A DNA stretch of 64,000 nt from Arenimonas maotaiensis (lineage in GTDB: Bacteria; Pseudomonadota; Gammaproteobacteria; Xanthomonadales; Xanthomonadaceae), in NCBI RefSeq assembly GCF_014638745.1, contig NZ_BMFO01000004.1:124001-188000 (forward strand), written 5' to 3'. The position numbers were made by a program, and so were the translations under genes. Below the pieces are notes generated by a model. It was not told the DNA's origin. It did no database searches and saw only the letters and a list, made by a program, of their open reading frames with translations. Positions 5,628 through 18,197 of this stretch are shown piece by piece; the stretch's first letter is position 1; each line of letters begins with the position of its first letter.

Positions 5628-8600
5628 GCGTCGCCGGATTCAGCATCAAGCGCCCCGTCACCACGGTGATGTTCTTCGTCTCGATGTTCGTGGTCGGGCT
5701 GATCGCGGCCGTGCGCCTGCCGCTGGAGGCCTTTCCGGCGGTGACCTTCCCGGGTATCTTCCTGCAGTTGCCGTACAGCGGCTCGACGCCCGAGGAAGTG
5801 GAGCGTACCGTGCTGCGCCCGGTCGAGGAGGCGGTGTCGACCATGACCGGCGTCAAGCGCATGGAGGGCAGCGCACGCGCCGACGGCGCCTCGATGTTCA
5901 TCCAGTTTTCGGACTGGGAGCGCGACGCCTCGATTGCCGCGTCGGAGGCGCGCGAGCGCATCGACGCCATCCGCGACGAGTTGCCGGACGACCTGCAACG
6001 CTACTTCGTGCTGAAGTTCTCGACCAGCGACGAACCGGTGCTGAAGGTGCGTCTGGCCAGCAACCGCGACCTGACCCGCGAATACGACATGATCGAACGC
6101 GAGTTCAAGCGCCGGCTGGAACGCATCAACGGCGTGGCCCGGGTCGAGGTCACCGGCGCGCCGCCGAACGAAGTCGAGATCGCCATCGCGCAGGACCGGC
6201 TCGACGCCCGCGGCATCAGCCTGAACCAGCTCAACAGCCGCCTGCGCGACGCCAACTTCTCGGTGTCGGCCGGTCAGATCGACGACGGCGGACGCCGGTT
6301 CCGGGTGCAGCCGGTCGGGGAGATCGACGACCTGCAGCAGTACCGTGACATCGTCATCGACGGCAAGGGCACGCGTCTGGCCGACGTCGCCGACGTGCAG
6401 CTCAAGCCGGCGCGCATGGATTACGGCCGCCGCCTGGACGGCCGACCGGCGGTCGGACTCGACATCTTCAAGGAGCGCAGCGCCAACCTGGTGCAGGTGG
6501 CGCGCGACGTGCTGGCCGAGGTCAACACCATCTCGCGCGATCCGGAAATGGACGGCGTGCAGGTGCTGGTGGTCGAGGACCAAGGCGAGGCGGTGACCGG
6601 CTCCTTGCTGGAACTGGCCGAGGCCGGCCTGGTCGGTCTGCTGCTGTCGATCATCGTGCTGTATTTCTTCCTGCGCCATTGGCCGTCGACGCTGATGGTC
6701 ACCACCGCCATTCCGATCTGCTTCGTGATGACCCTCGGCTTCATGTACTTCGCCGGCGTCACCCTCAACATCCTGACCATGATGGGCCTTCTGCTTGCGG
6801 TCGGCATGCTGGTCGACAACGCCGTGGTGGTGGTCGAGAGCATCTACCAGGAGCGCGAACGCATGCCCGGCCAGCCGGTGCGCGCTTCGCTGATCGGCAC
6901 CCGCAACGTCGCCATCGCGCTGTCGGCCGGCACGCTCTGCCACTGCATCGTGTTCGTGCCGAACCTGTTCGGCGAACGCAACATGCTCAGCATCTTCATG
7001 TCGCAGATCGCCATCACCATCTCGGTCTCGCTGCTGGCCTCCTGGCTGGTCGCGGTCAGCCTGATTCCGATGCTGTCGGCGCGCCTGAAGACGCCGCCGG
7101 CGGTGCGTAACGACGACGGCCTGATCCCGCGCCTGCAGCGCCGCTATGCGGCCTTCCTGCGCTGGACCCTGGAGCACCGCGGCAAGAGCGTGCTCGGCAT
7201 CCTGCTGATCGTCGCGGTCAGCCTGGTGCCGATGACGCAGATGAAGACCAACATGTTCGGCGGCGAGGACATCGGCGAAACCAGCGTGTTCTACCAGTGG
7301 AACGGGGCCTACACCAAGGAGCAGATGTCGGACGAAATCGCCCGCGTCGAGGCCTTCCTGGAGGCCAACCGCAAGGCCTACGGCATCACCCAGATCTATT
7401 CGTACTTCAGCGAGCAGGGCTGGGGCGGCACCAACATCAAGTTCGAATCCGACAGCGCCCAAGACAGCAAGAAGCTGGTCGACCGCATCCGCGAGGAACT
7501 GCCGAAATCCGCCCGGGCCAAGCTCGGCATCGGCAACCAGGGCGGCGGACCGGGCGGCGGCGGAGGCTTCGGCGGCAATACCGTGCAGGTCCAGCTGGTC
7601 GGCGACTCCTCGGAGACGCTGAAGGCGCTGGGTGCCGACATCGTACCGATGCTGGCCACGCTGCCGCAGCTGCGCGACGTGCGTGTCAACGTCGGCGACA
7701 AGAACAGCGAGCTGTCCGTGCGCGTCGACCGCGAGCGCGCGGCCGCGTTCGGCTTCAGCGCCGAGCAGGTCTCGCAGTACGTCGGCCTGGCCCTGCGCGG
7801 CGCGCCGCTGCGCGAGTTCCGCCGCGACGACACGGAAGTGCCGGTCTGGGTGCGTTTCGCCGGCGCCGAGGATTTCGGCACCGAGGACATCGCGGGCTTC
7901 ACCGTGCTGGCGCCGGACGGCAACAGCGTACCGCTGCTGGCCCTGGTCGACGTCGAGGTCAAGGCCGCGGCCACCGAGATCCAGCGCTCGAACCGCCAGA
8001 CCACGTTGGCCATCGAGGCCAACATGGCCGACAAGGTGACCCCGCCGGAAGCGCGCAAGGCCATGGAAGAGCGTCTCAAGCAGGTCGCGTTCCCGCCCGG
8101 CTACACCTTCAGCTTCGACGGTGGCGGCGGGCAGGACGACAACGAGGCGATGCAGCAGATGCTGTTCAATCTGTTGCTGGCGCTGGTGATGATCTATGTG
8201 GTGATGGCGGCCGTGTTCGAATCGCTGCTGTTCCCGTCGGCGATCATGAGCGGCGTGGTGTTCTCGGTGCTGGGGGTGTTCTGGCTGTTCTGGCTGACCG
8301 GCACCGAATTCAACGTCATGGCCTTCATCGGCATCCTGGTGCTGATGGGCGTGGTGGTCAACAACGGCATCGTGATGATCGAGCACATCAACAACCTGCG
8401 CCGCGGCGGCATGTCGCGCACCGATGCGCTGGTGGAGGGCAGCCGCGAGCGCCTGCGGCCGATCCTGATGACGATGGGCACCGCGATTTTGGCCATGGTG
8501 CCGATCTCGCTCGGCCAAACCCAGATGGCCGGCGACGGTCCGCCGTATTTCCCGATGGCGCGCGCCATCGCCGGCGGCCTGGCGTTCTCGACCGTGGTCA

Positions 8601-8692
8601 GTCTGCTGTTCCTGCCGACCATCTACGCGATCCTGGACGATCTGCGTACCGGCGCGGTGCGCGGATTGCGCGCCGCACGCGGGGTCGGTTGA
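5624..8692 (+). CDS. RND efflux pump permease (second of two)
   Basis: Second RND transporter, 1022 residues, of normal AcrB-like length and starting at the ATGA overlap with the first. The N-terminus (FSIKRPVTTVMFF) is classical. TM4 reads VGMLVDNAVVVVES, so the second relay Asp is Asn here, whereas the upstream paralogue has Asp-Asp. A Gly-rich run (GGGPGGGGGFGG) sits near residues 640-652 in the second periplasmic loop. One adaptor with two dissimilar RND proteins recalls heteromeric pumps of the MdtABC/MuxABC kind, but orthology to those is not claimed. The gene ends 7 bases from the convergent TraB-family gene. Confidence 0.92.
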   Translation: MSVAGFSIKRPVTTVMFFVSMFVVGLIAAVRLPLEAFPAVTFPGIFLQLPYSGSTPEEVERTVLRPVEEAVSTMTGVKRMEGSARADGASMFIQFSDWERDASIAASEARERIDAIRDELPDDLQRYFVLKFSTSDEPVLKVRLASNRDLTREYDMIEREFKRRLERINGVARVEVTGAPPNEVEIAIAQDRLDARGISLNQLNSRLRDANFSVSAGQIDDGGRRFRVQPVGEIDDLQQYRDIVIDGKGTRLADVADVQLKPARMDYGRRLDGRPAVGLDIFKERSANLVQVARDVLAEVNTISRDPEMDGVQVLVVEDQGEAVTGSLLELAEAGLVGLLLSIIVLYFFLRHWPSTLMVTTAIPICFVMTLGFMYFAGVTLNILTMMGLLLAVGMLVDNAVVVVESIYQERERMPGQPVRASLIGTRNVAIALSAGTLCHCIVFVPNLFGERNMLSIFMSQIAITISVSLLASWLVAVSLIPMLSARLKTPPAVRNDDGLIPRLQRRYAAFLRWTLEHRGKSVLGILLIVAVSLVPMTQMKTNMFGGEDIGETSVFYQWNGAYTKEQMSDEIARVEAFLEANRKAYGITQIYSYFSEQGWGGTNIKFESDSAQDSKKLVDRIREELPKSARAKLGIGNQGGGPGGGGGFGGNTVQVQLVGDSSETLKALGADIVPMLATLPQLRDVRVNVGDKNSELSVRVDRERAAAFGFSAEQVSQYVGLALRGAPLREFRRDDTEVPVWVRFAGAEDFGTEDIAGFTVLAPDGNSVPLLALVDVEVKAAATEIQRSNRQTTLAIEANMADKVTPPEARKAMEERLKQVAFPPGYTFSFDGGGGQDDNEAMQQMLFNLLLALVMIYVVMAAVFESLLFPSAIMSGVVFSVLGVFWLFWLTGTEFNVMAFIGILVLMGVVVNNGIVMIEHINNLRRGGMSRTDALVEGSRERLRPILMTMGTAILAMVPISLGQTQMAGDGPPYFPMARAIAGGLAFSTVVSLLFLPTIYAILDDLRTGAVRGLRAARGVG

Positions 8693-8699
8693 GCGCGAC

Positions 8700-9899
8700 T
8701 CAACCGACCTTGAGCAACAGGGCGGCTCCGGCCGCCCAGACCGCCAACGCGGTGCCGGTGTTGGTCAGGATGAAGTTGACCAAAATGCGCGCGAAGCGGT
8801 TCTTCCACCAGCCGGCGATTTCGGTGGTGTCGTCCTTCAGCCGCAGCAGGTCTTCGTAGGTCGGCTTGTGCATCTTGGCCTCGACATAGGCCGAGACCAT
8901 GCCGGAGCTCAGCGCCGGGTGCAGGGGCGTCAGCGGCGAGGCGACGAACGCCGCCAGGCAGCTCAGCCAGTGCCCGCGCGCGGCCAGGCAGCCGATCAGG
9001 CCGCCGGTGCCGGTGATCAGGATCCATTGCAGCAGCAAGGTGCCGGCCAAGGCCAGACCACCCTGTTGGAAGCCCCAGGCGAAGCCCAGGCCGAGAAAGG
9101 CAACGAGCAGCAGGGTGAACCACGGGATGTTCGAGCCGGCCGGTACCGCATCCAGTGCGGTCAGGATTTCCGGATTGCGGTTGTCCGCATCCTGCAGCGC
9201 CTGCGCCAGGCCGGCCAAGTGCCCGGCGCCGACCACCGCCAGCACCCGCCGCACCGACGACGCGCCCTGCAGGGTCAGCAGTTTGGCGGCCATGTAGCGG
9301 TCGCGTTCGGCGATGATGCTCTCGAACAGCTGCGGCGTCTGCTTGGCGAATTCGCCGAAGCTCGATTCCAGCAGGTCGCCCTGTTTCAGTTGCTCGATTT
9401 CGGCTTCGCCGATGTCATCCGAGCTGATCAAGCTGACGCCCAAGCCGGCCGCCAACTGCGCGCGCCGGAAAAAGCCGAGCTTGGCCCAGGTGCGTTTCAG
9501 GGTGATGCCGGCGTCGCGGTCGATCAGCTCCAGGCGCAGACCGCGCTCGACCGCCTCGGTCGAAGCCGCCTTCAGTTCGGCGCCGGGCTCGATGCCGAGC
9601 TGATCGGCCAGCCGGCGCTGGTAGGCGGCCAGCGACAGGTTGGCGGCGACCAGTCCGATCTTGTCGTCGCGGATGATCTGGAAGATGTCGAGCCGGTACA
9701 GCGCGTCCGGTTCGGTCAGCTGTCGGTGCCGGTTGGCGTCCAGTTCCACCGCCACGGTGTCGTATAGGCCGCTGTCGATGGCGGCCTTGACCGCCTCCAG
9801 GCTTTTCGGCGAGACGTGCGCGGTGCCGAGCAGGGTGTACTCGACGGCACCGACGGTGACCTGTTTGACCGGCTGGCCGGCGAAATCGGGCAGGCTCAT
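8700..9899 (-). CDS. TraB/PrgY-family membrane protein
   Basis: Member of the TraB/PrgY family (399 residues), named after enterococcal pheromone-shutdown proteins and also found in archaea and eukaryotes. The biochemical role is uncertain, and a metalloprotease-like activity has been proposed for the wider fold. The N-terminal domain holds the hallmark LLGTAHVS motif near residue 23 and a conserved Glu in VAVELDANR; RVLAVVGAGHLAGL lies near 230. Several hydrophobic segments follow about residue 255 and should be membrane helices. It starts 4 bases from the end of aguB on the same strand and is probably in the same operon, though a link to polyamines is only positional. Confidence 0.88.
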   Translation of the reverse strand: MSLPDFAGQPVKQVTVGAVEYTLLGTAHVSPKSLEAVKAAIDSGLYDTVAVELDANRHRQLTEPDALYRLDIFQIIRDDKIGLVAANLSLAAYQRRLADQLGIEPGAELKAASTEAVERGLRLELIDRDAGITLKRTWAKLGFFRRAQLAAGLGVSLISSDDIGEAEIEQLKQGDLLESSFGEFAKQTPQLFESIIAERDRYMAAKLLTLQGASSVRRVLAVVGAGHLAGLAQALQDADNRNPEILTALDAVPAGSNIPWFTLLLVAFLGLGFAWGFQQGGLALAGTLLLQWILITGTGGLIGCLAARGHWLSCLAAFVASPLTPLHPALSSGMVSAYVEAKMHKPTYEDLLRLKDDTTEIAGWWKNRFARILVNFILTNTGTALAVWAAGAALLLKVG

Positions 9900-9903
9900 C
9901 GGC

Positions 9904-10791
9904 TCAGTCGCGGTAGCGTTTGAGCAGGTCGGCGTAGGCGTCGATGCGGCGGTCGCGCAGGAACGGCCACATCCGGCGCACGCTTTCGCTGCGCGCCAGG
10001 TCGATGTCGGCGATCAGGATTTCCGGCGCGTCCAGGCCGGCCTCGGCCAGGTATTCGCCCTGCGGACCGAGCACGTGCGAGCTGCCCCAGAAACGGATGC
10101 CGCTGGCGCCGAGCGGCGAGGGCTCGAAGCCGGTGCGGTTGCAGCTCAACACGGGGATGCCGTTGGCCACGGCATGGCCGCGGTGGCTGAGCAGCCAGGC
10201 CTGGCGCTGGCGCGCCTTTTCCTCCTCGGTATCGTCCGGATCCCAGCCGATGGCGGTCGGGTACACCAGCAGTTCGGCACCGGCCAGCGCCATCAGGCGG
10301 GCGGCCTCCGGATACCACTGGTCCCAGCACACCAGCACGCCGAGGCGGCCGATGCTGGTGTCGATCGGTTCGAAGCCGAGGTCGCCGGGCGTGAAGTAGA
10401 ACTTCTCGTAGAAACCCGGATCGTCCGGGATGTGCATCTTGCGGTATTTGCCGAGCAGTCGGCCGTCGCGCTCGAACACCACCGCGGTGTTGTGGTACAG
10501 GCCGGCGGCGCGGCGTTCGAACAATGACGCCACCAGCACCACGCCGTGCTTGGCGGCCAGCGCCGACAGCCGTTCGGTGCTCGGGCCGGGAATCGGTTCG
10601 GCGCGGTCGAATTCGGCCGGCGATTCGTGCTGGCAGAAATAGGCGCCGTTGTGCAGTTCCTGCAACAGCACCAGACGGGCACCGCCGGCTGCGGCCTCGG
10701 CCACGCGCTGCTCGATCACGGTCAGGTTGGCCTCGGCGCTGCCGTGGTCGATTTCCTGGATCAGGGCCGCTTTCAGGGTTCGGGCGCTCAT
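9904..10791 (-). CDS. aguB: N-carbamoylputrescine amidase
   Basis: Nitrilase-superfamily amidohydrolase (295 residues) that converts N-carbamoylputrescine to putrescine, CO2 and ammonia, the last step of the agmatine route to putrescine. The Glu-Lys-Cys catalytic triad is visible: Glu45 in LLQELHNG, Lys118 in KYRKMHIPDDP and Cys155 in VLVCWDQWYPEAAR. The PDDPGFYEKFYFTPGD segment is characteristic of the AguB branch. The start overlaps the stop of aguA by 4 bases, so the two enzymes of the pathway are translationally coupled. Confidence 0.96.
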   Translation of the reverse strand: MSARTLKAALIQEIDHGSAEANLTVIEQRVAEAAAGGARLVLLQELHNGAYFCQHESPAEFDRAEPIPGPSTERLSALAAKHGVVLVASLFERRAAGLYHNTAVVFERDGRLLGKYRKMHIPDDPGFYEKFYFTPGDLGFEPIDTSIGRLGVLVCWDQWYPEAARLMALAGAELLVYPTAIGWDPDDTEEEKARQRQAWLLSHRGHAVANGIPVLSCNRTGFEPSPLGASGIRFWGSSHVLGPQGEYLAEAGLDAPEILIADIDLARSESVRRMWPFLRDRRIDAYADLLKRYRD

Positions 10792-11819
10792 GTCGACAAT
10801 CCTTCGGGGAGTTGCATGGTGCAGCAGTGCAGGCTGCCATTCTGCCAGATTAGGTCGCGGCAGGGGATGCCGACGATTTCGCGGCTGGGGAAGGCGCGCG
10901 CCATCACCGCCAGCGCCTCGGCGTCGGCGGCATCGCCGTACACCGGCATCAGCACGGCGCCGTTGACGATCAGGAAATTGGCATACGACGCGGCCAGGCG
11001 GCGGCCGCCGTCCAACACCGGTTGCGGCCAGGGCAGTTCGAACAGTTCGTAAGGCGTGCCGTCGGTGCGGCGCAGGGCACGCAGTTCGGCGGCCATGGCC
11101 TGCAGTTCGCCGTAATGGCTGTCGGCCGTGTCCTGGCAGCCCTGGTACACGATGCGCGACGGCGAGGCGAAGCGGGCCAGGGTATCGATGTGGGCGTCGG
11201 TGTCGTCGCCCTCCAGATGACCGTGCTCCAGCCAGAGTACCCGGTGCTGGTGCAGCGTTTCTTTCAGCACGGCCTCGATTTCCGCGCGGGATTTGTCCGG
11301 ATGGCGCTCGTGCAGGCAGTGCCAGGTCGACAGCAGGGTGCCGTCGCCGTCGGTCTCGATGCCGCCGCCTTCCAGGGCGAACTCGATGCGTTGGTGGCGG
11401 GCGGCGCCGAAATGGCCCTGTTCGGCCAGGCGCGCCACGATCTGGTCGTCCAGTCCGGCCTCGAACTTGCCGCCCCAGGCGGTGAAATGGAAGTCGAGCA
11501 GGCGGAAGCCCTCGCCCTCGCGCAGGGTGATCGGGCCGCTATCGCGTAGCCAAGTGTCGTCGTAGGGCATCCGAATCAGGCGCAGCCGGCTGAAATCGCA
11601 GCCGGCGGCGGTCAGCGCGGCGCGGGCATCGGCCTCCACGGATTCATCGGGCACCAACAGCAGCAGCGGCTCGAAGCGGGTGATGGCGCCGCACAGGGCG
11701 GCGAAGCAGACGGCGGTGGTTTCCAGACGCTCGGCCCAGTCGGTGCCGGCGTGCGGCCAGGCCATCAGGATGCCGGCTTGCGGCTCCCATTCGGCCGGAA
11801 AACGGAGAGGTTCGGACAT
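10788..11819 (-). CDS. aguA: Agmatine deiminase
   Basis: Guanidino-group-modifying enzyme (343 residues) that hydrolyses agmatine to N-carbamoylputrescine and ammonia. Family motifs are clear: FPAEWEPQAGILMAWPH at the N-terminus, DDTWLRDSGP near residue 87, LEGGGIETDGDGT, and WLEHGHLEGDDTDAHIDTLA. The nucleophile is Cys332 in NGSLHCCTMQLP near the C-terminus; the usual form of this motif is GGNIHCITQQ, so the flanking residues are somewhat divergent. First gene of aguA-aguB-traB-like. A source of agmatine (arginine decarboxylase) is not in the window. Confidence 0.96.
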   Translation of the reverse strand: MSEPLRFPAEWEPQAGILMAWPHAGTDWAERLETTAVCFAALCGAITRFEPLLLLVPDESVEADARAALTAAGCDFSRLRLIRMPYDDTWLRDSGPITLREGEGFRLLDFHFTAWGGKFEAGLDDQIVARLAEQGHFGAARHQRIEFALEGGGIETDGDGTLLSTWHCLHERHPDKSRAEIEAVLKETLHQHRVLWLEHGHLEGDDTDAHIDTLARFASPSRIVYQGCQDTADSHYGELQAMAAELRALRRTDGTPYELFELPWPQPVLDGGRRLAASYANFLIVNGAVLMPVYGDAADAEALAVMARAFPSREIVGIPCRDLIWQNGSLHCCTMQLPEGLST

Positions 11820-11853
11820 CGGCGGGCTCCGGGTTCGGGGTAGGGGCGGGGCA

Positions 11854-11883
11854 CGAAAAAGCCGGCGTCAGCCGGCTTTTTCG
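11854..11883. terminator. Intrinsic terminator downstream of rpmJ
   Basis: Perfect stem of 13 bases around a GTCA loop with A-rich and T-rich arms. It lies between the end of rpmJ and the start of aguA, both on the minus strand. It should end the rpmJ transcript and insulate aguA. Confidence 0.85.
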
Positions 11884-11904
11884 ATACCGCGGCAGGGCCG
11901 GCGA

Positions 11905-12030
11905 TTAACGCTGACGGGCCTTGAAGCGCGGATTGGACTTGCAGATCACGAAGACCTTGCCGCGCCGACGCACGACCTTGCAGTCACGATGGCGGGTCTT
12001 GGCCGACTTGAGGGACGACAGGACTTTCAT
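11905..12030 (-). CDS. rpmJ: Ribosomal protein L36, zinc-free type
   Basis: 41-residue large-subunit protein bL36. ATG 12028-12030 is chosen because it gives [16 protein letters not shown], the standard N-terminus of the family; the frame stays open further up without similarity. Only two Cys (in RDCKVV and VICKSN) remain of the four zinc ligands found in classical L36, so this is the zinc-independent (type B, YkgO-like) form. It stands alone, outside the spc operon, with its own promoter and terminator. In other bacteria such paralogues are induced by zinc limitation, but no Zur box was recognised here. Confidence 0.95.
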
Positions 12031-12105: not shown

Positions 12106-12125
12106 GAATAATTCCTTAATTATTC
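12106..12125. repeat. AT-rich perfect inverted repeat overlapping the tetR-like stop codon
   Basis: Two 8-base arms (12106-12113 and 12118-12125) around a 4-base loop, in an AT-rich patch that includes the TAA stop of the TetR-family gene. It may act as a weak terminator or as a protein site upstream of the rpmJ promoter. No long T-run follows on either strand. Confidence 0.4.
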
Positions 12126-12767
12126 GGCGTAGGCGGCCGACAGGGTATGCAGGTGCAGGCGTTCGCTGTCGCGCAGGAAGGGCGAAACCAGCATCATCAC
12201 CTGCACGATGCCCTGGCGGATGGCCTTCTGTTCGTCCTTTTCGCCGCGGACGCCCGCGTAATTCAGCCAGAACGTGGCCAACACCAGGATGTTGGTGGCC
12301 AGACCCTCGATTTCCCGGGCGCTGGCGCGCATCACCCCGGTCTCGTTCAGTCCCTGCATGATGCCGTGCGCATTGGCCGAGCCGCGCTTCAGGATGCGCG
12401 CGAAACGCAGGCGCAGGCTCCGGTTCCGGCTCAGGATGTTGATGATGTCACGGTACAGGAACCGGTAGTCCCAGATGCACTCGAACACCCGGTGCAGCTG
12501 CAGCCAGACGTCCTCGAGCGTGGCCGGCCGGCCCTCGGGTACCTGCAGGGCGGTATCCATGCGCTCCTCGAAGCGTTGGAACAGCTGCTCGATGATGTCG
12601 TCCTTGTTGCGGAAGTGGTAGTACAGGTTGCCGGGGCTGATTTCCAGCTCGTCTGCGATGTGGTTGGTCGATATGTTGGATTCGCCCTGTTCGTTGAACA
12701 GGCGCAGGGCGGCGTCCAGGATGCGCGTGCGGGTCTTGCCGGACACGTCAGGCCTGCAGGGATTCAA
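12120..12767 (-). CDS. TetR-family transcriptional regulator
   Basis: DNA-binding regulator of 215 residues. The TetR-type helix-turn-helix lies at about residues 32-53 ([21 protein letters not shown]). The C-terminal ligand/dimer domain begins with a [22 protein letters not shown] segment typical of a large proteobacterial TetR subgroup. Its 5' end overlaps the 3' end of the acyl-CoA-binding protein gene by 20 bases, so the two form an operon divergent from the fatty acyl-CoA reductase gene. A role in sensing an acyl-CoA or fatty acid is inferred from that context only. Confidence 0.9.
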
Positions 12768-13005
12768 TCAGGGCGATGTATTTCTTCATCGCCGATTCCG
12801 GGCTGGTGCCTTCCAGTTTCTGCCAGGCCTGGTACTTGGCCGAGGCCACGAAATCGAACATGCCCGGCGGCGGTCCGCTGACGTCGCCTTCCGAGCCTTG
12901 CTTGTACAGGGCGTACAGGCGCAGCAGGGTGTCGTTGTCGGGGCGCTTGCCCAGGTTCTTGGCGGCCAACGCCGCCTGCTCGAACTGCTCTTTCAAAGTG
13001 GCCAT
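12748..13005 (-). CDS. Acyl-CoA-binding protein (ACBP)
   Basis: Small four-helix acyl-CoA-binding protein, 85 residues, the usual size. ATG 13003-13005 (MATLKEQFEQA) is preferred over an upstream in-frame ATG at 13026. Family motifs are present: LRLYALYKQGSEGD, the Gly/Pro turn GPPPGMFDF, and AKYQAWQKLEGTSPESAMKKYI, which hold the Tyr and Lys residues that contact the CoA moiety. The protein should buffer and deliver long-chain acyl-CoA in the cytoplasm. Divergence from a fatty acyl-CoA reductase gene fits a role in feeding that enzyme. Confidence 0.95.
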   Translation of the reverse strand: MATLKEQFEQAALAAKNLGKRPDNDTLLRLYALYKQGSEGDVSGPPPGMFDFVASAKYQAWQKLEGTSPESAMKKYIALIESLQA

Positions 13006-13014
13006 GCGCGATGT

Positions 13015-13056
13015 CTTTGACGTCAAGTCGGATTCCAGTATTATGCATTAGAATGC
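13015..13056. promoter_or_regulatory. Paired inverted repeats in the ACBP/FAR divergent region
   Basis: Two short palindromes lie between the divergent genes: the perfect 10-mer TTGACGTCAA at 13017-13026, and GCATT-AG-AATGC at 13045-13056. AT-rich -10-like stretches lie around the second. They are candidate operator half-sites for the adjacent TetR-type regulator. No binding motif from a known family was matched. Confidence 0.35.
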
Positions 13057-13124
13057 GTTTTGCGGTAAAAAATCAAGCGCTTATTCCAATAATTTCGGGC
13101 ACATCCAAGGGATCGGGTATCGAC

Positions 13125-15113
13125 ATGGCTTATTTCGTCACCGGCGCCACCGGCTTCATCGGCCGCTTCCTGGTCGGCAATCTGCTCAAGCGCAAAGGCA
13201 CGGTGTACGTGCTGGTTCGCAAGGGCTCGCTCGGCAAGCTGCAGGACATCGGCGCGCGCATGGGTTGGGACATGAAGCGCGTAGTTCCGGTCACCGGCGA
13301 CCTGGGCAAGGCCAAGCTCGGCGTTTCGGCGGCGCAGCTCAAGATGCTGAAAGGCAAGATCCGGCACTTCTTCCATCTGGCCGCCGTGTACGACATGACC
13401 GCCGATGCCGAAAGCCAGAAGACCGCCAACATCGACGGTACGCGGCATGCGCTGGACCTGGCCACCGCGATCCAGGCCGGCTGCTTCCACCATGCCAGCT
13501 CGATCGCCGCCGCCGGCCTGTATCCGGGCGTATTCCGCGAAGACATGTTCGAGGAGGCCGAGGGTCTGAAGGATCCGTACCTGAAGACCAAGCACGAATC
13601 CGAAGGCCTGGTGCGCCGGCAGAACGCGGTGCCGTACCGCATCTACCGCCCGTCGATGGTGGTCGGCCACTCCAAGACCGGCGAGATCGACAAGATCGAT
13701 GGCCCGTACTACCTGTTCACCCTGATCAAAAAGATCCGCCAGACCCTGCCGCAGTGGATGCCCACCCTCGGCATCGAGGGCGGCCGCATCAACGTGGTGC
13801 CGGTCGATTTCGTGGCCGACGCGATGGACCACATCGCGCACAAGCGCGGGCTGGACGGCCATTGCTTCCATCTGGTCGATCCCGAGCCGATGCGCTTCGG
13901 CGAGCTGATGAACACCTTCGCCCGCGCCGCGCATGCCCCGGAGATGACCATGCGCCTGGACGCGCGCATGTTCGCGTTCATCCCGGCCCCGATGCGCATG
14001 GCGGTCGGCAGCCTGCCGCCGGTCAAGCGCCTGACCAACATGGTCCTGCGCGACCTCAAGATCCCGCAGTCGGTGCTGTCGTTCATTACCTATCCGACCC
14101 GTTTCGACAGCCGCGAGGCCGAGCGCGCGCTGAAAGGCAGCAAGATCGCCGTGCCGGCGCTGGACAGCTATGCCTGGCGCCTGTGGGATTACTGGGAACG
14201 CCACCTCGACCCGGATCTGTTCATCGACCGCTCGCTGCGCGGCAAGGTCGAGGGCAAGGTGGTGCTGATCACCGGCGGCTCGTCCGGCATCGGCAAGGCC
14301 GCCGCCATCAAGATCGCCGAAGCCGGCGCCAAGGTGGTCATCGCCGCCCGAGGCGAGGAGGAGCTGGAGGCGACCCGCCGCGAAATCACCGAGGCCGGGC
14401 ATCTGTGCTTCGCCTACCGGTCCGATCTGGCCGACTTGGAATCCTGCGACCGCCTGATCGAGCAGATCGAGAAGGAGCACGGCGGCATCGACATCCTGGT
14501 CAACAACGCCGGCCGTTCGATCCGCCGTTCGATCGAGCTCAGTTTCGACCGCTTCCACGATTTCGAGCGCACCATGCAGCTGAACTACTTCGGCGCGCTG
14601 CGGCTGATCATGCAGTCGCTGCCGGGCATGATCGCCAAGCGCAGCGGCCACATCATCAACATCTCCTCGATCGGCGTGCTGGCCAGCTCGCCGCGGTTCT
14701 CGGCCTACGTCGCCTCCAAGTCGGCGTTGGATGCTTTCAGCCATTGCGCCCAAGGCGAGCTGTCGGGCAAGGGCATCAACTTCACCACCATCAACATGCC
14801 GCTGGTGAAGACGCCGATGATCGCGCCGACCAAGATGTACGAGTCGGTGCCGACGCTGACGCCGGAGGAGGCCGCCGACCTGATCGTCAAGGCCATCATC
14901 GACAAGCCGCGCCGGATCGCCACGCGCCTGGGCGTGTTCGCCGGGGTCGCGCATGCGCTGTTCCCGAAAGCCTACGAAGTGGTGGTCAGTACCGCGTTCG
15001 AACTGTTCCCGGATTCGGCCGCCGCCAAGGGCATGGCCGGCCGGAGCGAAGCCGCGCAGCCGACCAACGAGCAGATCGCGTTTGCCTCGCTGATGCGCGG
15101 CGTGCACTGGTAG
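13125..15113 (+). CDS. Two-domain fatty acyl-CoA reductase (alcohol-forming)
   Basis: 662-residue fusion of two short-chain-dehydrogenase folds. The N-terminal extended-SDR domain starts at ATG 13125 with the nucleotide motif TGATGFIG (residues 6-13) and carries a YxxxK active site in DPYLKTKHE. The C-terminal classical SDR domain starts near residue 370 with TGGSSGIG and has YVASKSAL with the catalytic Tyr and Lys. Length, domain order and motifs such as HFFHLAAVYDMTADAE, SFDRFHDFERTMQLNYFG and the final MRGVHW agree closely with my memory of the Marinobacter enzymes that reduce fatty acyl-CoA through the aldehyde to the alcohol for wax esters. Cofactor preference is not read from the sequence. 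Confidence 0.9.
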   Translation: MAYFVTGATGFIGRFLVGNLLKRKGTVYVLVRKGSLGKLQDIGARMGWDMKRVVPVTGDLGKAKLGVSAAQLKMLKGKIRHFFHLAAVYDMTADAESQKTANIDGTRHALDLATAIQAGCFHHASSIAAAGLYPGVFREDMFEEAEGLKDPYLKTKHESEGLVRRQNAVPYRIYRPSMVVGHSKTGEIDKIDGPYYLFTLIKKIRQTLPQWMPTLGIEGGRINVVPVDFVADAMDHIAHKRGLDGHCFHLVDPEPMRFGELMNTFARAAHAPEMTMRLDARMFAFIPAPMRMAVGSLPPVKRLTNMVLRDLKIPQSVLSFITYPTRFDSREAERALKGSKIAVPALDSYAWRLWDYWERHLDPDLFIDRSLRGKVEGKVVLITGGSSGIGKAAAIKIAEAGAKVVIAARGEEELEATRREITEAGHLCFAYRSDLADLESCDRLIEQIEKEHGGIDILVNNAGRSIRRSIELSFDRFHDFERTMQLNYFGALRLIMQSLPGMIAKRSGHIINISSIGVLASSPRFSAYVASKSALDAFSHCAQGELSGKGINFTTINMPLVKTPMIAPTKMYESVPTLTPEEAADLIVKAIIDKPRRIATRLGVFAGVAHALFPKAYEVVVSTAFELFPDSAAAKGMAGRSEAAQPTNEQIAFASLMRGVHW

Positions 15114-15134
15114 TTCCGGCCTGTTGCCCGTAAC

Positions 15135-15163
15135 GAAAAAGCACCGCGATGCGGTGCTTTTTC
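15135..15163. terminator. Bidirectional terminator between FAR and phasin genes
   Basis: 13-base perfect stem (135-147 and 151-163 after 15,000) around a GAT loop, with A5 and T5 tails. It serves the convergent reductase (+) and phasin (-) genes. Confidence 0.9.
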
Positions 15164-15183
15164 ACGGGTACCGAAGCAGGGGG

Positions 15184-15789
15184 TCAGGCTTTCGGGTTGT
15201 GCGGCGTGGCGGCTTTCGGCAGGGCCACCTTGCCGGCTTTCTTCGCGACCTTGGCTTGCGCGCTGGCGCCCTTCGTCGGCGATTTCTTGGCAACGGGCTT
15301 CTTCGCCGGCGCCTTCGCCGCCGTCTTCGGCTTGGCGGCCGCCGGTTTGCCGTTCTGCTTGCGCAACTCGGCGGTCAGCGTCTCCACGCGTTTGCTGAGC
15401 GCACCCAGATCTTCGCGGGTCGGCACGCCCAGACGGGTCAGCGCGCGCTGCACGCGGTCTTCGAACACCTTCTCCATGCGGTCCCAGGTGTCGGCGGCCT
15501 TTTCGCGCACATCGTCGACCCGGTCTTCGACCGCATCGCGCACCACGCCGACCTTGCCGGTGGCGAGTTTGCGGGTCTGGGTTTCCAGGCTCATGCCCTT
15601 CTTGACCAAGGCTTCGAACAGGTCGGTGCCTTCGCCCTGGGCGCGGGCCAAGGCGCCGACGCCGGCGGCCCATATCTGCTGGGCGGTTTCGAGCAGGTTG
15701 CGCGAAGCAGACTCGGCGCGGGCCGAGGCGGCCTTGGCCGGTTTGCGGGCGGCGGTTTTCGTGCGGGCGGTCTTCTTGAGCGTGGCCAT
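15184..15789 (-). CDS. Phasin-family granule-associated protein
   Basis: 201 residues from ATG 15787-15789. The N-terminal half (about residues 30-135) is an amphipathic alpha-helical phasin domain with LLETAQQIWAAGVGALARAQ and TDLFEALVKKGMSLE, known from PhaI/PhaF proteins that coat polyhydroxyalkanoate granules. The C-terminal third is a Lys/Ala/Pro-rich tail with AAK and PAKKP repeats like histone H1, as in PhaF, which ties granules to the nucleoid. It lies in a group with two other granule- or lipid-linked genes. No PHA synthase is in the window, so the coated material could be polyester or neutral lipid. Confidence 0.88.
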   Translation of the reverse strand: MATLKKTARTKTAARKPAKAASARAESASRNLLETAQQIWAAGVGALARAQGEGTDLFEALVKKGMSLETQTRKLATGKVGVVRDAVEDRVDDVREKAADTWDRMEKVFEDRVQRALTRLGVPTREDLGALSKRVETLTAELRKQNGKPAAAKPKTAAKAPAKKPVAKKSPTKGASAQAKVAKKAGKVALPKAATPHNPKA

Positions 15790-15878
15790 GCGGACGTCCT
15801 CGGTGGTTGTCGGTTCGGAATGCGGGATGCACCCGAATGACGCCAGTCTCGGTGCTTTGTCTAGAGCAAACACACCAG

Positions 15879-15904: not shown

Positions 15905-17131
15905 TCAGGCTTTCCGGCTGCGCAGGGCGTGCTCGATGTCGTCCAGGTCGTGCCAGAGCTGCGCGGTGGTCGCGGTTCGGCGCGAAACCGGTCCGATGTC
16001 GTCCAGCAACGTGATGGTCGGGTCGTCCAATACCGTCTTGTTCAGGCGCATGCCGTGCTTGGCCAGTACCGGCGCCAGGGTCTTGGCGTTCTTTTTGAGG
16101 TCGCGCAGGGTGCTCTGGAACGCGTGTTCGCAGACGCGGTGGCGCGAGGAGTAGCTGAACACGTTGGTGAAGAACATCTCGGCGTCGTCTTCGTTCGGCT
16201 CCAGCACCAGCTGGTCGGTTTCCGGGTACTGGCGCGCGTACTTCTCCAGACCGACCTGCATGCGCGATTGCAGCAAGGTGCGGAAGGTCTGCGACAGCAC
16301 CATCGGCAGGCCGCCGTCGGCCAGTTTGGTTTTCGGTTCCGGCGTGGTCGCGTCGCTCTTGGCGTTGAACGGGACGAAGGGGTTCAAGCCGATCATCAGG
16401 TCGATGCCGTGGTCGAGTATGACCGAGGCATGCATGGTGCGACGCAGCGCGCCGTCGACGAAATGGTGGCCGTTGATGTCGACCGGCGGATACAGGCCGG
16501 GCAGGGCGGAGCTGGCCTGCACCGCCTGCGAGATCGGCACGCCGTCCCAACCTTTACTGCCGAAGCGCACCGCTTTGCCGGCGTCCAGATCGACCGCCAC
16601 CACGTACAGCGGACGTTCGAGCGCGCGGAAGTCGTTGCTGCGCCCGGGGCCGCTGAACACGCCCTCGAGAAAGCGTGCGATCGGGGCGTTGTCGAACAGG
16701 CCGGTCGGCACCACGCCGGTCAGCCGCGGCATCATCTCGTTCATGCGCGCGCCGGCCGGATCGGTGATCAGGCTTTTGCACCAGTCGAAGGCCAGGCCAG
16801 GCAGTGCGGCCGCGCGCTTGCCGTATTCGGCGAACGCGGGCTTGAGGAACATGCGGGGCTTGAAACGGATGTCCGGGTGGTCGCCGGTGATGAAGATGCG
16901 GCACATCTCGGCCGTGCTCAGCCGGTTCACCAGGCCGGCGGCCAGGAACGCGCCGGAGCTGACGCCTACATAGACGTCCAGGCGGGTCAGGTCGAGTCCG
17001 TCGATGGCGCGCTCCAGCGCGCGCAGGGCGCCGAGTTCGTACATGCCGCCGATCGGCCCGCCGCCGGCGATGGCCAATCCGATGCGGCCTTGGTTGCGGA
17101 CGGGTTGGGTGGCGCGTTGCAGTACGAGCAT
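15905..17131 (-). CDS. Patatin-like phospholipase/lipid acyl hydrolase
   Basis: 408 residues from ATG 17129-17131; the frame is open to 17269 but similarity begins at this start. It has all the patatin elements: the oxyanion-hole GGGPIGGMYELGAL (from about residue 23), the nucleophile elbow GVSSG with Ser58, and the dyad Asp226 in FVDGALR. No signal peptide is present, so it should act in the cytoplasm or on inclusion surfaces. Patatin-like proteins hydrolyse acyl chains from phospholipids or act as depolymerases or lipases on storage granules. Its place between a phasin and a PHA-region gene favours a storage-lipid role, by inference. Confidence 0.9.
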   Translation of the reverse strand: MLVLQRATQPVRNQGRIGLAIAGGGPIGGMYELGALRALERAIDGLDLTRLDVYVGVSSGAFLAAGLVNRLSTAEMCRIFITGDHPDIRFKPRMFLKPAFAEYGKRAAALPGLAFDWCKSLITDPAGARMNEMMPRLTGVVPTGLFDNAPIARFLEGVFSGPGRSNDFRALERPLYVVAVDLDAGKAVRFGSKGWDGVPISQAVQASSALPGLYPPVDINGHHFVDGALRRTMHASVILDHGIDLMIGLNPFVPFNAKSDATTPEPKTKLADGGLPMVLSQTFRTLLQSRMQVGLEKYARQYPETDQLVLEPNEDDAEMFFTNVFSYSSRHRVCEHAFQSTLRDLKKNAKTLAPVLAKHGMRLNKTVLDDPTITLLDDIGPVSRRTATTAQLWHDLDDIEHALRSRKA

Positions 17132-17200
17132 GGAATGGCCAAGTAAACCGGTACTCCGGCATTGTACGGTTAAAATGAGCTCAATCCAACGCAATCCGGA

Positions 17201-17929
17201 ATGCCCATGGCGCTCAACGACTTGCAATCCCGGCTGGCCCGCCGCCTGCGCTGGCAGCAGGACGCGCACCGGCTGGAGCGCGACGATCCGCGGCTGGCGA
17301 ACAGCCTGTCGGCGCTACGCGCCTGGCAGGCCGAACGCCTGGCGAGCAGCTTTGCGGAATTCCTGGCCGATCCGGCGACGCGTCCGGCGGCGGCGTTCTT
17401 CCTGTCCGATCTGTACGGCGACGCCGATTTCCTGCAGCGCGACCTGGAAGCCGCGCGCATCCTGCCGAAAATGGCGCGCATCCTGCCGGAAAGCCTGTTG
17501 CAGGCGGCGGTCGATGCCATCGAGCTCTCGGTGCTCAGCCATGCCCTCGATTTGCGCATGGCGCGCACTTTGCTGAAAGCCGGGGTGAAGCCGAAGGCCT
17601 TGGATGGACGCCGTTATGGCGAGGTCTATCGCGCGGTCGGCCTGCCGCGCCTGCGCCGGCGGCAGATCGATCTGGTGCTCGAAGTCGGCCAGCGCCTGGA
17701 TGCCGTGGTCAAGCGCCATGGCGTCGGTAAGTTGTTGGCCAGCGCGCGCTTGCCGGCGCGCTTGCTCGGCTTGCAGCATCTTCAAGGATTTCTGGAGCGC
17801 GGCTTCACGGCCTTCAACCATCTGGGCGGCGCCGAGACGTTTTTGGCACGCATCCATCGGCAGGAGCATTGCATCGCGCGGCGTCTGGCGGCCGGTGCCG
17901 CCGAGCCGTTCGCGCCGCCGTTCAGCTGA
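17201..17929 (+). CDS. Uncharacterised all-alpha protein in the granule gene group
   Basis: 242 residues, no known domain recognised. It is rich in Leu, Arg and Ala, has no signal peptide or membrane helix, and is predicted to be almost wholly helical. Notable stretches are RPAAAFFLSDLYGDADFLQRD near residue 65 and ILPKMARILPESLLQA near residue 88, which look conserved rather than random. An alternative ATG lies two codons later. It is divergent from the patatin-like gene and overlaps the end of the convergent PHA-region gene by 8 bases. Function unknown. Confidence 0.8.
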   Translation: MPMALNDLQSRLARRLRWQQDAHRLERDDPRLANSLSALRAWQAERLASSFAEFLADPATRPAAAFFLSDLYGDADFLQRDLEAARILPKMARILPESLLQAAVDAIELSVLSHALDLRMARTLLKAGVKPKALDGRRYGEVYRAVGLPRLRRRQIDLVLEVGQRLDAVVKRHGVGKLLASARLPARLLGLQHLQGFLERGFTAFNHLGGAETFLARIHRQEHCIARRLAAGAAEPFAPPFS

Positions 17930-18197
17930 ATTCGTCGTCCAGATAGCGGCCGATCGCGTCTTCGATCGGTCCTTTCATCATCGACAGCATGAAGCCGAGT
18001 TCGGCGAACACGTGCACCGATTTGGCGTCGACCGTGATGTGGCCGTCGACGCCCGAGTGGCTGAAATTCAGCATGTCGCCGTCCCAGGCGCAATCGACGT
18101 CGAATTTGGCGGCGATCTGGTCGGCCACGTGCTGGACTTTGGTTTTCGCCTCGGCCAGAGGGAGGTTGTGCGGACGGGTAAGGTCGATGGCGGACAT
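17922..18197 (-). CDS. Polyhydroxyalkanoic acid system family protein (PHA granule region)
   Basis: 91 residues, matching the small family named after its occurrence near polyhydroxyalkanoate genes (PHA_gran_rgn). Conserved traits are the N-terminal RPHNLPLAEAKTKVQHVADQ helix, WDGDMLNFSHSGVDGHITV, and a C-terminal LGFMLSMMKGPIEDAIGRYL helix. The molecular role of the family is not established. Together with the phasin it supports a carbon-storage locus. It is convergent with the unknown 242-residue gene and divergent from the FHA gene. Confidence 0.88.
   Translation of the reverse strand: MSAIDLTRPHNLPLAEAKTKVQHVADQIAAKFDVDCAWDGDMLNFSHSGVDGHITVDAKSVHVFAELGFMLSMMKGPIEDAIGRYLDDEFS

Follow-up and report, generated by a model that had tools for sequence, protein, structure and literature searches.

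The stretch of DNA analysed here, referred to as the window, covers 64,000 nucleotides of Arenimonas maotaiensis (NCBI RefSeq assembly GCF_014638745.1, contig NZ_BMFO01000004.1, positions 124,001 to 188,000 of the forward strand), and the subject of this study is a locus in it that is built around a fatty acyl-CoA reductase. The host belongs to the Lysobacteraceae and has a genome of 2.16 Mb with a completeness rated 100% (G000 in our set; the locus is on its contig C4). A two-domain reductase of 662 amino acids, of the Maqu_2507/FCR1 type (NF005539/PRK07201), is encoded at 13125-15113 on the plus strand. Divergent from it, on the minus strand, are the genes for an acyl-CoA-binding protein (ACBP) of 85 amino acids (12748-13005, with its ATG at 13005 and a PF00887 match of 100 bits) and for a TetR-type regulator (12120-12746; PF00440 and PF13972). 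The regulator gene starts at GTG 12746 or TTG 12767, and, as it therefore touches or overlaps the ACBP stop, the two genes are likely co-transcribed. The intergenic region, 13006-13124, presumably holds the promoters and operator of both the ACBP-TetR pair and the reductase. An earlier sequence-only reading of the window had named these three genes, with two short-chain dehydrogenase/reductase domains in the reductase, and had described the pair as divergent from it; the Pfam and NCBIfam matches bear out the genes, and their coordinates the arrangement. Most likely, the locus provides the fatty-alcohol part of a pathway for wax-ester storage, which would be completed by a WS/DGAT wax-ester synthase encoded elsewhere in the genome.

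Identity of the reductase

The open reading frame (ORF) of the reductase extends over 13011-15113 (700 amino acids), and Pfam places NAD_binding_4 at residues 43-272 and adh_short at residues 416-606. As the family model begins at residue 39, the true start is most likely the ATG at 13125, which is that residue. The protein scores 989 bits against NF005539 of NCBIfam, where the curated cut-off is 549, and covers the profile from 1 to 657 of 657. Its membership in the two-domain reductase family, as previously claimed, is thereby confirmed. The second-ranked family gives 312 bits, below its own cut-off. Matches of the N-terminal half extend to thioester-reductase models (TIGR01746, 125 bits, below the cut-off of 213) and to the solved MxaA chain.

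The YxxxK motif is present in both domains of the enzyme, and so are the glycine-rich nucleotide motifs. Conservation was assessed in an alignment of 94 full-length reductases, the locus enzyme included (95 sequences were taken, and the truncated row L049 was dropped). The Y and K of both YxxxK sites are invariant, along with NNAG and the last three positions (G, I, G) of the C-terminal GxxxGIG (94/94). The glycines of the N-terminal GxxGxxG are kept in 92 rows, the other two having one gap and one X. Judged by these residues, neither domain looks dead.

In a quick maximum-likelihood tree of these 94 reductases, all of them relatives without biochemical characterisation, the locus enzyme pairs with that of Arenimonas sp. 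GDDSR-1 (node value 100). It lies inside a 67-row clade (node value 99) of Lysobacterales and unclassified proteobacterial rows; Hahella, beta-proteobacterial and Chromatiales rows fall outside, together with some metagenome-assembled genome rows labelled Lysobacterales. This placement fits a descent that is mainly vertical and not a recent import. Among the matches listed, Arenimonas sp. GDDSR-1 is also the closest named relative (89%); of the named marine relatives measured, Hahella sp. HN01 comes nearest, with 65% identity over 662 residues. The enzyme had been described as a close match to those of marine wax-ester producers; this holds for Hahella sp. HN01.

By its sequence, the locus reductase is a member of an already known enzyme kind, to which Maqu_2507 and FCR1 of Mycobacterium tuberculosis belong. 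FCR1 (Rv3391) is, by its description, the same kind of enzyme, uses NADPH and serves wax esters. With NADPH, FCR1 and FCR2 both convert oleoyl-CoA to the aldehyde and the alcohol, and deletion of either lowers wax-ester formation under nitric oxide (PMC3522743). The identity between FCR1 and MAQU_2507 is 40% across 639 amino acids (PMC3522743), on the basis of which Maqu_2507 is taken to be a full-length two-domain enzyme. In this respect and in its wax-ester context, it resembles the locus reductase, as far as published descriptions go (PMC7744569, PMC3522743). Acr1 of Acinetobacter is kin of the C-terminal half, according to the alignments reported for FCR1 (PMC3522743). It is a single domain of ~300 amino acids that forms aldehyde, whereas the locus reductase has a fused N-terminal NAD_binding_4 domain.

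The WS/DGAT partner and its co-occurrence with the reductase

The sequence-only reading had proposed that the genome be searched for a WS/DGAT wax-ester synthase, and the search was positive. The host has one such gene (L001:877-2319, minus strand), which scores 436.8 bits against TIGR02946 (cut-off 309.95), with the catalytic domain at G000:C1:108067-108849. Both WS/DGAT domains are present, the HHxxxDG motif is intact in the form HHCYADG, and NVPGP is present as well. The gene is flanked by photolyase-like and bacterioferritin-like ORFs, as read from their translations.

Co-occurrence was followed in a draw of 149 genomes of the family, at least 90% complete and from 46 genera; this one draw was searched for every protein family. 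The reductase is over the cut-off in 93 of the 149 genomes and WS/DGAT is present in 93; the two sets are identical, and both genes are missing from the other 56. In this scoring, G042, G073 and G122, whose genes are split or truncated, were taken as positive, and G043, with a match (7.4e-72) limited to part of the C-terminal half, was below the cut-off and taken as negative. Both genes are carried by every genome drawn from 28 genera and by none from 15, which leaves 3 of the 46 genera mixed (2/6, 2/6 and 4/6 genomes positive). Even in the mixed genera, the reductase and WS/DGAT matched genome by genome, and this is the strongest part of the co-occurrence evidence.

The wax-ester reading is based on the identity of the genes, the conserved catalytic motifs in both enzymes and the exact co-occurrence in the family draw. 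Fatty-alcohol or wax-ester synthesis had been suggested earlier from the locus; the presence of the WS/DGAT gene and its exact pairing with the reductase in the 149 genomes support that suggestion. In the proposed pathway, the two-domain reductase would convert a long-chain acyl-CoA to the aldehyde and then to the alcohol, presumably with NADPH. The single WS/DGAT would then esterify the fatty alcohol with a second acyl-CoA, giving a storage wax ester. ACBP may serve as a buffer or carrier of acyl-CoA, and the TetR-type protein may act locally to repress the divergent promoters.

Of 295 genomes taken from across the class, the host among them, 10 have the reductase over the cut-off, 15 have WS/DGAT (E 1e-10) and 8 have both. 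ACBP is found in 18 of the 295, including 9 of the 10 with the reductase; G157 is without it. In G243, a WS/DGAT genome without a full reductase, a single-domain protein matches the C-terminal half. Two of the ten, at L107 (G157) and L103 (G333), are full two-domain reductases in genomes without a WS/DGAT match. The association outside the family is strong but not exclusive, and looser than within it.

Alternative products of the pathway

Several points weigh against the wax-ester reading. The host WS/DGAT gene is not adjacent to the reductase locus. The 149 family genomes are related, and the counts from them are not independent trials; Fisher values calculated from these counts take no account of kinship and are not to be taken as probabilities. 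ACBP is not exclusive to the pathway; it occurs in 100 of the 149 genomes, namely all 93 with the reductase and 7 of the 56 without. In the class-wide draw, 7 of the 15 WS/DGAT genomes are without a full reductase, and G157 and G333, two of the ten reductase-bearing genomes, are without WS/DGAT. WS/DGAT enzymes are also able to make triacylglycerol and are often bifunctional. This bifunctionality, together with G157 and G333, favours an alternative in which the alcohol goes to another product (free alcohols or other lipids) and WS/DGAT makes mainly triacylglycerol. Such an outcome is improbable, as joint presence and absence is exact in the family draw, and as 11 of the 80 named loci, which are the best-ranked among at least 578 reductase relatives, have WS/DGAT within the reductase locus itself.

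A further objection comes from the literature. Maqu2507 has been treated as aldehyde-forming only, with acyl-CoA taken to the aldehyde and host reductases finishing the reaction (PMC5658922). This conflicts with a review table in which Maqu_2507 is NADPH-dependent and converts acyl-CoA or acyl-ACP (acyl carrier protein) to fatty alcohol (PMC7744569), and with the account that Marinobacter reductases take acyl-CoA to alcohol and do not release the aldehyde (PMC3522743). The locus reductase could likewise perform one step only, either by stopping at the fatty aldehyde, with other reductases finishing, or by acting on acyl-ACP; the wax pathway would be unchanged. Taken by itself, the C-terminal domain has its counterpart in single-domain Acr1-like enzymes such as the match in G243, and Acr1 forms only aldehyde (PMC3522743), which is in keeping with this proposal. 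The catalytic motifs kept in both domains argue the other way, as do the two accounts of alcohol as the product, and a one-step enzyme is considered very unlikely. The preferred reading stays with a reductase that would supply fatty alcohol to WS/DGAT.

Conservation of the divergent arrangement

Among the named loci, 74 of the 80 have at least 1.3 kb of upstream sequence, and in 62 of these, ACBP and TetR genes are both present and divergent. This conservation and the full-length family scores indicate that the locus is more than a chance grouping. The remaining 12 include Hahella, Chiayiivirga flava and the six beta-proteobacterial loci, in which the gene order differs; at the locus of Hahella sp. 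HN01, neither an ACBP nor a TetR match lies within 10 kb. In the family draw, ACBP is divergent and less than 600 bases from the reductase in 77 of the 93 genomes, and in the other 16 it is either on another contig (6) or 2.3-272 kb away (10). A compact form of the grouping is seen in L066, from the Burkholderiales, where 4.5 kb hold WS/DGAT (7503-8981, minus), ACBP (9048-9323, plus), phasin (9342-9854, minus) and the reductase (10001-11992, plus).

A shared operator was looked for in 64 intergenic stretches between ACBP and the reductase, the host's own among them. In the 7-base word counts, read by eye and with no formal palindrome search, no shared palindrome was apparent. The commonest word, TCTGGCA on either strand, occurs in 36 of the 64 stretches and is absent from the host's own 13006-13124. 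It often appears as CTCTGGCAA, mostly ahead of the reductase (for example, in L025, L030 and L062), and is possibly a promoter element.

The phasin, the patatin-like lipase and polyhydroxyalkanoate

The module is larger than the sequence-only reading had it, as genes for a phasin and a patatin-like lipase are present downstream of the reductase. The phasin gene (15184-15873, minus strand; PF05597) is convergent with the reductase and has its likely start near 15789. The patatin-like protein (15905-17269, minus strand; PF01734) has GVSSG and DGA motifs and is a candidate wax or lipid-body lipase. The phasin would coat the wax bodies, and the lipase would mobilise them. Between the convergent reductase and phasin genes, at 15113-15184, there is a GC-rich inverted repeat with A and T runs on either side, by eye a two-way terminator.

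Phasin (E <=1e-30) is convergent and at most 5 kb from the reductase in 87 of the 93 reductase-bearing family genomes; of the named loci, 60 extend downstream by 5 kb or more, and 45 of these have a convergent phasin at this distance. In L064, L069, L075, L076, L050, L051 and L063, another phasin-like protein, weaker than the first, was noticed ~1.6-1.9 kb upstream of the reductase, beyond TetR, and similar weak PF05597 matches also occur near ACBP. Patatin orthologs are present in 37 of 41 reductase-centred loci and in none of the 55 loci that were centred on PHA_gran_rgn in genomes without the reductase, a contrast weakened by the different genes on which the sets are centred and by the search of fetched stretches only, which a copy elsewhere in the genome would escape. 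The 41 were chosen from the 93 reductase-bearing genomes to cover all 31 genera, the host's own locus not being counted; on the other side, G137 was left out of the 56 as it has no PHA_gran_rgn match.

A PHA_gran_rgn protein (17922-18197, minus strand; PF09650) is encoded next in this neighbourhood. With both this gene and the phasin adjoining the reductase, the cluster could be viewed as a remnant or accessory of a polyhydroxyalkanoate (PHA) granule system, in which the reductase is a bystander. Phasin is, moreover, found in 31 of the 52 reductase-free genomes that bear a class III PHA synthase (TIGR01836), as well as in all 81 of the reductase-bearing ones. This synthase is present in 133 of the 149 family genomes. 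It is missing from 6/6 Arenimonas genomes (the host among them), from 6/6 of Silanimonas (genus g9) and from four reductase-free genomes of three genera. The class I/II synthase (PF07167) has no match in the host or in the 5 other genomes of its genus. Across the draw, PF07167 matches 31 of 149 genomes at E 0.001, strongly (E <1e-40) only in G035, G097 and G104; the remaining matches are short, 2.7e-5 or weaker, and mostly at the position of the class III synthase. As neither synthase family matched in any of the 6 genomes, the PHA-granule reading of the neighbours was rejected for the host genus. Given also the strict pairing of the reductase with WS/DGAT in the family draw, a bystander role of the reductase is extremely unlikely. 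PHA_gran_rgn was dropped as evidence, since it is present in nearly every genome (148/149, with or without a detected PHA synthase) and, as a neighbour, is not specific to the module. Its presence where no PHA synthase was found means that its name may be misleading about its function.

The 16 genomes without the class III synthase bear on what the phasin does in the wax-ester pathway. Phasin (E <=1e-30) is kept in 12/12 of those with the reductase and in 0/4 of those without, which suggests, by a comparison of two genera against three, that wax bodies are served by the phasin in these genomes, either in addition to PHA or in its place. It counts against this view that phasin is not exclusive to genomes with the wax genes and that PHA_gran_rgn is present regardless of the synthase. 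A broader proposal, which we hold tentatively and with somewhat less than even confidence, is that the TetR, ACBP, reductase, phasin and patatin genes of Arenimonas and Silanimonas, along with the unlinked WS/DGAT, make up a self-contained wax-body module. The phasin and the patatin-like lipase would serve the wax-ester organelle, and the module would have been gained or lost as a unit several times in the Lysobacteraceae.

One of the mixed genera allows loci with and without the reductase to be compared. In its reductase-free genomes G017, G058 and G084, ACBP is still near the phasin and PHA_gran_rgn pair; the stretches read show no remains of a reductase (best E 0.8) and give no match to patatin. 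TetR is kept in G058, and none was seen in the stretches read of G017 and G084. In their reductase-bearing congener, G146, the genes run PHA_gran_rgn, patatin, phasin, reductase, ACBP, TetR. ACBP and TetR also stand together in the reductase-free genomes G058 (L123) and G019 (L126). As the two stay together there, the targets of the regulator may extend to ACBP or to other genes.

Apart from these genes, a PAD_porph-type deiminase gene is in tandem with a carbon-nitrogen hydrolase gene at 9904-11819 on the minus strand of the window. The pair presumably resembles an agmatine-to-putrescine route.

Probable wax storage in the Lysobacteraceae

The nearest published parallel comes from scaffolds of Antarctic and Subantarctic sediments, where WS/DGAT is beside ACBP and a MAQU_2507-like reductase (49.5-61.9% identity to MAQU_2507), in some cases with a phasin or PHA-system gene (PMC10351704). 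The scaffolds are mainly beta- and gammaproteobacterial, Burkholderiales-like ones among them, and one WS/DGAT cluster is affiliated with Chromatiales and Xanthomonadales. They are like the present module in holding WS/DGAT, ACBP, reductase and PHA-related genes together. They differ in being metagenomic, and the accessible part of that paper names no TetR, patatin or family-wide pairing. A literature search on patatin in connection with wax esters and fatty acyl-CoA reductases returned plant work only. The earlier statement that the lineage is not known for wax agrees with the open-access literature searched, which gave almost no report of wax-ester synthesis in Lysobacteraceae genera and none clear beyond PMC10351704, the other papers being judged by title or the start of the abstract. 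Two results go beyond the literature found: the reductase and WS/DGAT are exactly paired in the family draw, and a phasin-patatin neighbourhood accompanies the pair.

Among the matches listed, the named genera in which the reductase is found include Lysobacter, Pseudoxanthomonas, Luteimonas, Thermomonas, Silanimonas and Arenimonas. Since the reductase and WS/DGAT are kept or lost together in the relatives, wax storage is probably common in a family that is seldom credited with it. The patatin-like protein is a candidate lipase for the mobilisation of wax, and, as no PHA synthase was detected in this cell, the locus would make it possible to test what a phasin coats there. If the reading is true, wax-ester storage would be common in a large family whose members come from soil, water and wastewater.

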